A stretch of DNA of 64,000 nucleotides from Thermincola carboxydiphila (GTDB lineage: Bacteria > Bacillota > Thermincolia > Thermincolales > UBA2595), in the NCBI GenBank assembly GCA_016841325.1, contig JAENZJ010000019.1:1-64000 (forward strand), in the 5' to 3' direction. Every line of letters begins with the position of its first letter. Position 1 is the stretch's first letter. Positions 1 to 7,744 of the stretch are shown here, in pieces. Position numbers and translations under genes: made by a program. Under the pieces are notes generated by a model. It searched no databases. It was not told where the DNA came from and was given only the letters and a program-made list of their open reading frames with translations.

Positions 1-10
1 TGGTTATGAC

Positions 11-176
11 CGTATTATACGAACAACGGGCTAAATGGCTCCGCTTCGCTCCGACTCAACTTTCCCCGTCCTCGGCTGTCACGATTTTTGCGGTAAGTGG
101 GGAAGGGATGCAAGAGCAAAAAGCGCGCCAGCCCTGTGGGCGGGAAAGTTCATTTAGCCCCAATGCGTTATACGCC
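11..176 (+). repeat. Large nested palindrome, attC-like recombination site
   Basis: A GC-rich imperfect palindrome. GGGCTAAATG (28-37) pairs perfectly with CATTTAGCCC (151-160), and AACTTTCCC (58-66) pairs with GGGAAAGTT (142-150). The outer arms CGTATTATACG and GCGTTATACG are roughly complementary. The right arm ends in GTTATAC (167-173), which resembles a degenerate integron core site. It lies directly upstream of a single acetyltransferase gene that is followed by another palindrome of the same topology but different sequence. This is the pattern of integron attC sites. No integrase gene is in the window, so the call is an inference. Confidence 0.5.
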
Positions 177-236
177 ATGTTCTTTACTTATAAGCCGTCG
201 GCCGTCTTTGGCCGATGAATATGAAGGAGAAAAAAT

Positions 237-698
237 ATGATTATTACCTATCAAAACATGATTCCCGGTGAAGAAAAAGAAATATCAGAAATGATAAGCA
301 CCGTATTCCATAAATATATTGCCGCAGATTATTGTAATGAAGGCATACAAGAATTTACAAAATACATAGAGCCAAAATTAATATTAAAAAGATTCAATGA
401 AGGCAATATATTAATTACAGCAAAACATGAAGGGAAAATAGTTGGGGCAGTAGCAATTCAGGATAAAAAACATATATCTTTGCTGTTTGTATCAGAGCAG
501 TACCATCAAAAAGGAATAGCAAAGGAACTGGTCAAGAAAGCAATTGAAAAAGCAGAAAAAGAATATGGAATAACCGACATATCAGTTAATTCATCACCTT
601 ACGCAGTAGAAATATATGAAAAACTTGGATTTATCAAAACAGACAACAAACAAGAGCAAAATGGAATTAGATACATACCGATGACTAAGGAATTATAA
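237..698 (+). CDS. GNAT family N-acetyltransferase
   Basis: A 153-residue protein with the full-length Gcn5-related acetyltransferase fold, which moves an acetyl group from acetyl-CoA to an amine. The acetyl-CoA loop is visible near residues 88-100 (SEQYHQKGIAKELV, the Q/RxxGxG/A motif), preceded by the strand SLLFV and followed by the NSSPYAVEIYEKLGF segment typical of the C-terminal half. The ATG follows AAGGAG with good spacing. Base use is AT-rich compared with the housekeeping part of the window. The gene stands alone between two palindromes, as a cassette-borne gene would. The substrate cannot be told from sequence; small-molecule or antibiotic amines are possible. Confidence 0.85.
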   Translation: MIITYQNMIPGEEKEISEMISTVFHKYIAADYCNEGIQEFTKYIEPKLILKRFNEGNILITAKHEGKIVGAVAIQDKKHISLLFVSEQYHQKGIAKELVKKAIEKAEKEYGITDISVNSSPYAVEIYEKLGFIKTDNKQEQNGIRYIPMTKEL

Positions 699-719
699 AG
701 GATTACACAAATAAAAAAG

Positions 720-747
720 CCATTTCCGCCATCCGTGGCGGAAATGG
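720..747 (+). terminator. Perfect 12-bp hairpin after the acetyltransferase gene
   Basis: CCATTTCCGCCA (720-731) pairs perfectly with 736-747 around a TCCG loop. It lies 22 bases after the stop codon. There is no U-tract on the plus strand, though an A-rich run precedes it, so it would work better as a terminator on the minus strand. It may instead act as an RNA-stabilising hairpin. Confidence 0.45.
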
Positions 748-768
748 ATAAGCTTGGGTCAAATCGGC

Positions 769-913
769 GCATAACATTTTAGCCGTGTTTCCGCAGTTGA
801 GCATGCAGAAACACCGGCAAAGCAGTGCCCTACCGGTGTTTTAACCATTACTTAATATGCTCAATTGCGGTAACACGTGTTGGACGAAGCCGCGTGTCCA
901 GAAGCAGTTATGG
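769..913 (+). repeat. Second large nested palindrome, attC-like
   Basis: The outer arms CATAAC (770-775) and GTTATG (907-912) are exact complements. A 21-base arm at 784-804 pairs with 857-877 with two mismatches, and an inner stem AAACACCGG (809-817) pairs with 833-841. The topology of core-like boxes around a long imperfect hairpin matches integron attC sites, while the sequence is unrelated to the palindrome at 11-176. That combination is characteristic of cassette arrays. The DNA from about 167 to 907 would then be one 740-bp cassette. Confidence 0.5.
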
Positions 914-3436: not shown

Positions 3437-3937
3437 CTAGGTCAGTTTAAAGGGTTCGTTTTTCCGCCACATACCATAGATAATTCTTAGCAGTTTGTTA
3501 GCTGTAGCAACCAAGGCTATCAGAAGCATCAAGGCCAGATAAGCTGTTAGCTGGTGGTCAGTAGAGAAGCGGTCTATATCTTCAATTTCTGCCAGGATAG
3601 TAGCAGCAGTAATATCTCCAATGCCGGGAATGGTCTTTAATAAAGAATAAAGCGATATGTCTTTGGCCGCCGCAACAATTTGAGCCCGTATGTCAGCCAG
3701 CTGAGTTTTTTGTGTCAAGAGTATGCCTATGTACTCGCGGAGAACACGGACATTGGACTGTTGGGAGACTTTGTAGGGCAAACTTGCCCTGGCGGCGGCC
3801 ATTAATTTAACATAGATATTTTCCGCCCATCCTTTTCTCTGGTATTGCGACTTAAGAAGAGCAAAGATATCTTCTCTAGCTAGAACTTCCCAGAATAACG
3901 GAAAGCCTCAAAACCAGTTAGAACTTGACTTTAGTTT
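3437..3937 (-). pseudogene. IS110-family transposase relic with internal deletion
   Basis: Readable sequence starts near 3935 in one frame (GFEAF), shifts past a TGA at 3915-3917, and continues as FPLFWEVLAREDIFALLKSQ and QRKGWAENIYVKLM into the open stretch ending at 3437. The conserved IS110 C-terminal helix-hairpin region (LLKTIPGIGDITAATILAEI) is present. It jumps from LTAYLAL directly to TANKLLRIIYGMW, so the segment with the catalytic serine and usual GTxxISKRG motifs is deleted. The N-terminal DEDD domain is also missing. The element cannot be active. IS1111-attC relatives are known to insert into integron attC sites, which fits the cassette-like surroundings. Confidence 0.8.
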
Positions 3938-6040: not shown

Positions 6041-6581
6041 AAAAATCACCTATCGTACTTCGAATTTTTAATCGTATGCCGTATAGACGAGATTTTACTG
6101 TTCCAACAGGCATATTGAATATTTTACTAACTTCATTATATTTAAAGCCCAAATAGTCCTTGAAGATTACTAGGGATCTGTCTTCGGGGGTTAGAGACTG
6201 GATTGCTTCGATAAGCTTTTGTAATTCTTCTCTGGCAAAATATTCGTCTTCTGTGGAATTGAGTTCAGAAGATGCTGCCAATTCATTGGAGGGGATTTCT
6301 CGGTAAGAATCTCTCATGCTATTAATACATGTGTTATGGGTTATCGTATAAATCCAGGTTGCTAGGGAGGCTTTTTGGCTGTTATATGAATGTATGTTCT
6401 GATAGGTTTTTATAAAAACTTCCTGAGTAAGCTCTTCAGCAAGGTGATAATTGTTAGTAACCCTAATGCAGTAATTAAATATCTTATTTTTATATTTATT
6501 TACTAGAGATTCAAAGGTTTGGATGTCGCCATCACGTATTTTTTTAGCTGTTATTTTATCTAATAGCCTCAATGTAATCAC
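6033..6581 (-). CDS. ECF-type RNA polymerase sigma factor
   Basis: 182 residues with the region 2 signature (FESLVNKYKNKIFNYCIRVTNN then AEELTQEVFIKTYQNI and the -10 recognition part ASLATWIYTITHNTCIN) and a region 4 helix-turn-helix (LTPEDRSLVIFKDYLGFKYN, then MPVGTVKSRLYGIR). It directs RNA polymerase to a small set of promoters. The start is taken as GTG 6581; TTG 6572 is an alternative. It is followed by a coupled membrane protein and a second membrane protein, which suggests control by an envelope signal. The gene is AT-rich and lies inside the accessory island. Confidence 0.88.
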   Translation of the reverse strand: MITLRLLDKITAKKIRDGDIQTFESLVNKYKNKIFNYCIRVTNNYHLAEELTQEVFIKTYQNIHSYNSQKASLATWIYTITHNTCINSMRDSYREIPSNELAASSELNSTEDEYFAREELQKLIEAIQSLTPEDRSLVIFKDYLGFKYNEVSKIFNMPVGTVKSRLYGIRLKIRSTIGDFYD

Positions 6582-6763
6582 TTGTCCTTTTGATTATCTT
6601 CACTAATATATACACAAATCGAGCAAAATGGTTCGACTGGTCATTATAAAATTTTCTCTTTTTCTACAAAAATGCCTTTATTCTGCGCAATTTCACAAGG
6701 ATAATTACCTGAAGCAGTTCTTCAGTGATTTCCTCTTTGGTGGGAAGAGCAAATATAATATTC

Positions 6764-6812
6764 ATGCCGCGAAGCTTACAGCGGCGCGGCATGGGGATGT
6801 TTAGGCGAAATA
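6764..6812 (+). repeat. 50-bp repeat, copy 2
   Basis: Almost identical to 1612-1660 in the same orientation; the core reads GTTTAGGC here instead of GGTTAGGC. It lies 50 bases upstream of the dienelactone-hydrolase-like gene. The two copies bracket about 5.1 kb containing the cupin, QueG-like, acetyltransferase and sigma genes. Confidence 0.55.
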
Positions 6813-6864
6813 CGTAGCTTAATGCATGTCAAAAACCTTTTAGACTTTTATGGGAGAACTATTT

Positions 6865-7470
6865 ATGCTCAAATATATTAACAATTTGGATTCAGCTGTT
6901 GTTGTTTTACATGAGATATATGGGATTAATGAACATATATCAAATTTGTGTAGTCATATCTCAAATTGCAATTTTGATGTTTATTGTCCGGACTTATTGA
7001 ATGGCATCGGTTCCTTCGATTATAGCGAGGAAGCAATAGCCTACACGAATTTTTATCGGAATGTGGGATTTGACAGGGCTGTTGGACAAGTTAAGGTCCT
7101 GTTGAAACAATGCCGTTCTAAATATAAGCATGTCTCTGTTGTAGGATACAGTGTTGGTGCTACCATTGCTTGGTTATGTAGTAAAGAAATAAATTCATGT
7201 GGTGGTGTTGTTGGATTCTATGGTTCTCGGATTCGGGATTATCTTGAAGTTAGACCTAAGTGCCCGGTGCTGCTTTTCTTCCCTACAGAGGAGATTTCAT
7301 TTAATGTTGGTTCCTTGGTTGAGAAACTATCATCTAGGGAAGAAATTCAGGTCAAAGTACTCCAAGGAAAGCATGGGTTTGCAGACCCTTTTTCAAGATA
7401 TTATGTAGAGGAATCGCATAAGAAATCCGAAGCCATGATGGTCAAATTTATCAAAGACGCCGCGGTTTAG
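6865..7470 (+). CDS. Dienelactone-hydrolase-like alpha/beta hydrolase
   Basis: About 201 residues with the dienelactone hydrolase layout: an N-terminal VVVLHEIYGINEHI segment with the conserved glutamate, the nucleophile elbow GYSVGA near residue 98 (Ser in place of the Cys of classical dienelactone hydrolase), FYGSRIRDY, a PTEE segment with an acid residue, and HGFADP carrying the catalytic histidine. A cytoplasmic esterase or hydrolase acting on a lactone or ester is likely. ATG 6865 follows GGGAGAA with proper spacing; ATG 6850 lacks a site. It is downstream of the 50-bp repeat, still in the AT-rich island. Confidence 0.8.
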   Translation: MLKYINNLDSAVVVLHEIYGINEHISNLCSHISNCNFDVYCPDLLNGIGSFDYSEEAIAYTNFYRNVGFDRAVGQVKVLLKQCRSKYKHVSVVGYSVGATIAWLCSKEINSCGGVVGFYGSRIRDYLEVRPKCPVLLFFPTEEISFNVGSLVEKLSSREEIQVKVLQGKHGFADPFSRYYVEESHKKSEAMMVKFIKDAAV

Positions 7471-7744
7471 CAGCCAAAAGTGAGGGAATTATGCTTAGTG
7501 CTTTACATTGTAGGAGCAACTGCAAAGCCACTGCCTAAAACAACAAGAGTTGTTCTGTGGCTTGAATTGCTTCCCCATTAAAACGTTTTGATCTTGGCAT
7601 CAACAATACCTGTGGCAACTTGGAATATTGACTGCCAGACAAGATGGGGACTGGATTGAATTAAATTTTCCTTCATAACTTTAGCCGGAAAAGCTACTAC
7701 AGTTATCAAAGGAGAGTTGACAAAACCATAAACCAATTTTTCAG

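Follow-up and report, generated by a model that had tools for sequence, protein, structure and literature searches.

A decayed gene cassette of Thermincola carboxydiphila belongs to a non-canonical, integron-like family of cassette arrays in Firmicutes

At the left end of a contig of Thermincola carboxydiphila, a single gene encoding a GNAT acetyltransferase lies between two large palindromes, and the first-pass annotation proposed that it is an integron-type gene cassette. The locus raises the question of whether a cassette system operates in Firmicutes, a phylum in which IntegronFinder 2.0 found only one complete integron, that of Limnochorda pilosa, and few CALINs, a near-total lack that was called intriguing (PMC9024848); the open-licence papers covered in our literature search contain no description of Thermincola, Desulfotomaculum or Firmicutes integron-like arrays. 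The window analyzed here, i.e., the whole stretch of 64,000 nucleotides, covers the first 64 kb of the 78.9-kb contig 7 in a genome of 3.43 Mb and 49 contigs, and because its base 1 is also base 1 of the contig, the left side has been cut by an assembly break. From left to right, its features read as an IS110 end, an attC site, the GNAT cassette, an IS91-like remnant, a cupin cassette and an IS110-associated repeat. An Rfam search at E ≤ 0.1 gave no match. As described below, the window contains two decayed cassettes of a chromosomal integron-like array, whose copy in this genome has been disrupted by insertions of IS110-like and IS91-like elements and is scattered across contigs 3, 7 and 10, and the GNAT cassette belongs to a widespread, little-noticed family of such arrays in Firmicutes. 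From sequence comparison, we assign a probability of about 0.85 to the main reading, that the cassette array works like an integron and is served by a tyrosine recombinase other than IntI.

The window opens with the end of an IS110-like element (1–21, unstranded; the remainder lies beyond the contig start), inserted at the R'' box of an attC. This attC, assigned to a preceding, lost cassette by comparison with array copies in relatives, occupies 22–169 (+) with the arrangement AAC-AAC-GGGCTAAATG ... CATTTAGCCC-CAATGC-GTT. It corresponds to the first palindrome (~22–169), which terminates in GCGTTATAC, the GTT being at 167–169, and which is far beyond chance. We regard it as a true attC because its close relatives recur in co-oriented arrays of one-gene cassettes in related genomes; ~150-bp elements of this kind (72–95% identity) form same-strand, spaced arrays in relatives, and on contig 55 (11.4 kb) of one of them (G003; the letters G and L designate the compared genomes and loci), where eight copies were reported, such elements separate about a dozen single-gene units. 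The shared stretch runs from AAC (22) to GTT (167–169), the positions of R'' and R' in attC; the 10-bp L''/L' stem (GGGCTAAATG/CATTTAGCCC), with unpaired spacers of different lengths, and R' are intact, and the IS end stands in place of the R'' box.

The R' core GTTATACGCC (167–176, +), in which complementarity places the putative G|TT crossover at 167/168, is the start of the GNAT cassette, which extends over 168–775. It carries one gene, that of the acetyltransferase (237–698, +; PF13673, E 3.9e-41), and closes with the R'' box GGCGCATAAC (766–775, +), including a confirmed CATAAC at 770–775; in relatives, the corresponding box ahead of the IS is CATCRYYTAAC. The R' core is complementary to the cassette's own R'' at 9 of 10 bases, and the G|TT boundary is that of all the arrays; the outer arm (see below) is weak, and the attC is missing. 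Its identity as an integron-type cassette, as proposed at first pass, is supported by the arrays, by the covariation of R'' and cassette start and by the attI junction described below.

The missing attC is replaced by an internally deleted IS91-like element (776–1641, unstranded), recognized by its identity to a T. ferriacetica locus (L053) and containing the second palindrome (776–913). The window sequence at 768–1653 is 89–91% identical to pieces of this T. ferriacetica element (L053 4797–6897), a 2.1-kb copy with a Y2 transposase and an inserted IS110 gene, and includes a remnant of the Y2 (IS91-type) transposase (1062–1394, −; PF04986, Y2_Tnp, E 8.1e-10). An R'' box, in most cases CATCRYYTAAC, immediately precedes the copies of the element, and copies whose right end is available terminate just ahead of the cassette start GTTRRRYGAAAT; with R'' before it and a cassette start after it, the element occupies the expected place of attC. 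The second palindrome is accordingly ruled out as a second type of attC. The first-pass reading of both palindromes as attC sites therefore stands for the first one and fails for the second, and with it falls the description of the interval as one gene plus one attC, since the second palindrome is an insertion-sequence end. The complementarity of CATAAC and GTTATG, which had been taken as a mark of attC, is incidental, because in three of four relatives the first base of GTTATGG at 907 is C or A (CTTATGG, ATTATGG). IS91-like elements that replace attC behind R'' boxes were seen at 776–1641 of the window, L053 4797–6897, L055 873–1049 and L019 1044–1217, a pattern as if these elements were targeting cassette sites.

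A second cassette follows at 1643–2168. It begins with G|TTAGGCGAAAT (1642–1653, +), an exact match to the cassette-start consensus GTTRRRYGAAAT, carries a small cupin-like gene in reverse orientation (1720–2070, −; PF07883, E 5.5e-4, below the gathering score), and ends with the R'' box TCGCCTAAAC (2159–2168, +), complementary to its own start GTTAGGCGA. This box aligns with the varying R'' boxes (TCAC/TCGC/TCGTCTAA) found with the same element in L056 of T. ferriacetica and on contig 3. The right end of the array is an attC-like, IS110-associated repeat (2169–2210, unstranded) with 98% identity to the end of contig 3 over 52 bp. At the opposite end, the sequence of window 1–24 also closes IS110 (PF02371/PF01548) copies at attC-like sites in L056. 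IS110-like elements at attC R'' boxes are thus located at 1–21 and 2169–2210 of the window and at 6198–7549 and 9136–10487 of L056, and such insertions may lead to array decay. Another remnant of an IS110-type transposase lies outside the array (3437–3802).

Where the first-pass annotation suggested that an integrase may lie upstream, the genome has an array-type recombinase, which is not an IntI. Encoded on contig 3 (860–2029), this intact protein of 389 residues is followed, 36 bp behind its stop codon, by the perfect cassette start GTTAGGCGAAAT of a first cassette carrying a PemK-type toxin gene, and it is the likely candidate enzyme for the window cassettes. Two subfamilies adjoin the arrays. 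Subtype A (285–290 residues; G003, G004 and G005) is divergent from the array, has the attI side AGTTCAnATATAAnAGTG|TT with minor differences among the three genomes, and has a LexA-type box (GAACATATGTTC or GAACAAATGTTC) upstream of its gene; type B, a second subfamily in Thermincola of ~380 residues, is followed by its attI and array. For both, the best-matching profile is that of IntI (TIGR02249), with 231 and 223 bits, below the cut-off of 265, and among PDB structures they match IntI4 (2a3v) best, in an alignment split at the IntI-specific domain. Between the motifs flanking this domain there are 58–60 residues (63 in two), versus 99–101 in IntI and 65 in Xer, and the array recombinases are accordingly classified, by their sequences, as Xer-like enzymes without the ~40-residue IntI-specific domain. 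In the phylogenetic tree, the IntI clade (100/99) excludes both subfamilies, and type B is sister to a Bacteroidota group including a recombinase of the rAID type (84/91). An AlphaFold2 model of the G004 recombinase computed with no alignment was unusable (pLDDT 35.5).

IntI-type integrases were found neither in the source genome nor in the best 20 of 398 genomes matching its recombinase, and none exceeded the curated cut-off in 61 relatives. Over this cut-off, IntI is present in 2 of 398 phylum genomes (G129 and G309), neither of which has the new array type; G309 (single contig, 3.8 Mb) has two IntI copies, and the IntI loci of the two genomes are L160–L164. A small, home-made covariance model of class 1 attC likewise found no match in the window or in the new arrays, although it detects the controls (class 1/2 sites and the attC sites of the array beside IntI in G309); this suggests how the new sites could escape standard searches. 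Both checks proposed at first pass, for attC by covariance model and for an integrase in the genome, were thus negative, and they do not refute the cassette, since it belongs to a non-canonical integron family.

Cassettes in the arrays start with G|TTRRRYGAAAT and end with CATCRYYYAAC immediately before attC, and the two ends of one cassette are complementary, the first 9 bases and a cassette-specific outer arm matching its own R'' side. Forty cassettes picked only on the 9-bp core constitute an unbiased set for the outer arm; at positions 13–17, own pairs are complementary in fractions of 0.88–1.0, versus 0.25–0.28 with the ends of other cassettes, hence the arm is cassette-specific. In this set, complementarity is absent at positions 10–11, and T is nearly constant at position 12. 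For L140, L141 and L048, which are long new arrays, a likewise unbiased choice of chains on a 7-bp core alone gave 0.73–0.92 at positions 12–14. For 42 type-B cassettes, outer-arm values are inflated because the scan demanded an outer-arm threshold, and complementarity is 0.02 at position 11, which lies outside the selection; the mean folding z score of the type-B attC sites is −4.15 relative to mononucleotide shuffles of the bottom strand. This mismatch at position 11 from the crossover, between neighbors that pair, is conserved with few or no exceptions in all 82 cassettes of the new type. Canonical cassettes (10 of class 1 and the seven-cassette IntI array of G309) have 8–12 bp of complementarity followed by background; own-end complementarity was therefore rejected as a unique trait of the new arrays, the outer arm alone being distinctive.

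Among the longest ORFs in the arrays, 38 of 43 are co-oriented with the array, and the cargo is of the kind usual in chromosomal integrons, with GNAT, toxin–antitoxin, DNA repair, nuclease and methylase genes. Four successive cassettes with reverse-oriented genes, including the toxin–antitoxin genes ParE and HicB, were observed at L049 4324–8101 (G005). The source genome and G002 share ~81% identity through the recombinase to the attI/cassette junction and are unrelated beyond it, the first cassette at attI being PemK in the former and GNAT in the latter, so that cassette turnover at attI is visible between Thermincola species. Furthermore, a single G003 cassette adjoins attI on contig 64, and its copies on other contigs follow two distinct attC sites, and duplicated cassettes (88% and 91%) occur inside the arrays of G341 and G256.

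Type-B matches (E ≤ 1.5e-114) were obtained in 20 of 398 phylum genomes. A blind structural scan placed the first cassette 78–199 bp behind the matched recombinase domain at 12 loci, with up to eight or more cassettes downstream, some of the genomes being single-contig (G334 and G185). When counted within 240 bp behind the recombinase stop, the cassette-start motif was present in 16 of 21 loci, at distances of 36–198 bp, versus 0.62 expected; the scan background in first-order Markov sequence was 20 hits per 668,572 bp. Short IS-type recombinases used as controls (G361, G244, G192, G346 and G358) yielded one stray hit. Several cassettes were also seen ~4.4 kb from a control IS-type recombinase in the single-contig genome G130 (L146 7538–11778). 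In another single-contig genome, G229, an array of ~10 cassettes behind a truncated recombinase match (L152) is an integrase-less relic. The same attC family and cassette rule appear at L066 3270–3435, on a 5.8-kb contig of a Kapabacteria MAG (CALBDO010000033.1) for which misbinning is possible, and a pattern match in Rheinheimera (L068), which sits in a housekeeping region, was rejected as due to chance.

In the predicted mechanism, the recombinase would excise one-gene cassettes as circles and insert them at the attI beside its own gene, with the crossover at G|TT. Once circularized, a cassette would have its R'' paired with its own start (9 bp), and beyond the constant mismatch, the cassette-specific outer arm of 5–9 bp would lengthen the hairpin. 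Within the array, this arm faces the start of another cassette; it would flank its own attC only in the circle. Such extension of the hairpin by the own-end arm points to recognition of a folded strand. We infer all three elements of this scheme, i.e., the adjacent recombinase as the enzyme, single-strand recombination and the circular intermediate. The outer arm may help the incoming circle to form its hairpin, or it may be a side effect of the way in which cassettes originate. It seems fairly probable, from the comparisons above, that Firmicutes have their own phylum-wide integron class, using Xer-like recombinases without the additional domain of IntI and folded attC stems lengthened in the circle by the outer arm.

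The array of the window and the recombinase are on separate contigs, with no physical join in the assembly; since two unrelated subfamilies (A and B) are found beside arrays with alike ends, the enzyme could, in principle, act in trans. In a genome of 49 contigs with the array cut at contig ends, an IntI might instead be hidden in an assembly gap or act from elsewhere on a canonical integron (or CALIN), a reading with which the integron-like core R''/R' logic and G|TT crossover agree. However, the arrays adjoin non-IntI recombinases even in the single-contig genomes (G334 and G185), the distribution of IntI over the cut-off leaves out all 61 relatives and every one of the 398 genomes except G129 and G309, canonical arrays have no outer arms, and the canonical attC model, which recovers its class 1/2 and G309 controls, misses every one of the new arrays, all of which makes a concealed IntI improbable. 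Still harder to sustain is the view that dispersed palindromic repeats or MITE-like elements flank genes by chance with no cassette recombination. Thermincola is indeed rich in palindromic and IS-derived repeats, among them the second palindrome, but the complementarity joins the ends of the same cassette and varies cassette by cassette, one-gene spacing is strict, the genes are co-oriented as counted above, and one and the same cassette follows different sites; we consider this view very improbable.

A further possibility, which bears on whether the system is active today and in part agrees with our preferred reading, is that the array is real and now immobile in Thermincola, a relic from another lineage, the contig 3 recombinase being unrelated to the window cassettes. 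The window cassettes are full of IS, the R'' and start of the GNAT cassette differ at 1 of 10 positions and have no good outer arm, and the sites on contig 10 are degenerate. Against this stand the perfect cassette start close behind the intact recombinase on contig 3 and the 52-bp array-end repeat common to contigs 3 and 7, and we judge an immobile relic rather unlikely.

With canonical integrons, the new arrays share one-gene co-oriented cassettes, the G|TT crossover, R''/R' complementarity, an attI beside the recombinase, folded attC sites and, upstream of the subtype-A recombinase, a LexA box. They differ in the recombinase, which lies outside the IntI clade and is without its specific domain, a domain reported to be necessary for IntI activity (Messier and Roy 2001, as represented in citing papers), in the cassette-specific outer arm and constant mismatch, in the position of the type-B attI 3' of the gene, and in attC sites unmatched by the small class 1 model. 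By a definition based on IntI, the arrays fall outside the integrons on both the clade or domain of the enzyme and the canonical attC model, whereas in the functional sense they have a single-gene array in one orientation, own-start/R'' complementarity with G|TT, and attI by the recombinase, and cassette excision and integration by this enzyme would fit the turnover seen in genome comparisons; they constitute a non-canonical integron family. The Limnochorda pilosa integron, from the same phylum and with integron parts, differs in being IntI-based.

Another known system comprises the recombinase-associated acquired interbacterial defence (rAID) clusters of Bacteroidales (PMC12247911, citing Ross 2019), in which a Xer-like recombinase without the IntI domain likewise precedes co-oriented short genes with conserved intergenic motifs. 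A plasmid of Bacteroides ovatus carries such an array with genes of the immunity type (L168 5698–12777, NZ_CP081918.1), and seven of its eight cassettes follow the own-start/R'' rule. In contrast to the new arrays in Firmicutes, rAID clusters belong to Bacteroidales, carry orphan type VI immunity genes, and have the crossover sequence CA|TTA and shorter intergenic hairpins that lack the outer arm. If our reading is true, the new arrays and rAID together would extend cassette capture beyond IntI to at least one further large group of recombinases. If the arrays beside domain-less recombinases are functional, an entire branch would escape the current integron definition and search tools, an explanation would emerge for some cassette clusters that lack an integrase, and compact natural enzymes would allow tests of how Xer-like recombinases evolved single-strand recombination.

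The IS110-like insertions resemble a known group. The IS1111-attC group belongs to the IS110 family, and the IS110-like elements described here are similarly placed, at the R'' boxes of attC sites, with the difference that their target is the new attC family. An IS110-like element also sits in a class 1 cassette array.
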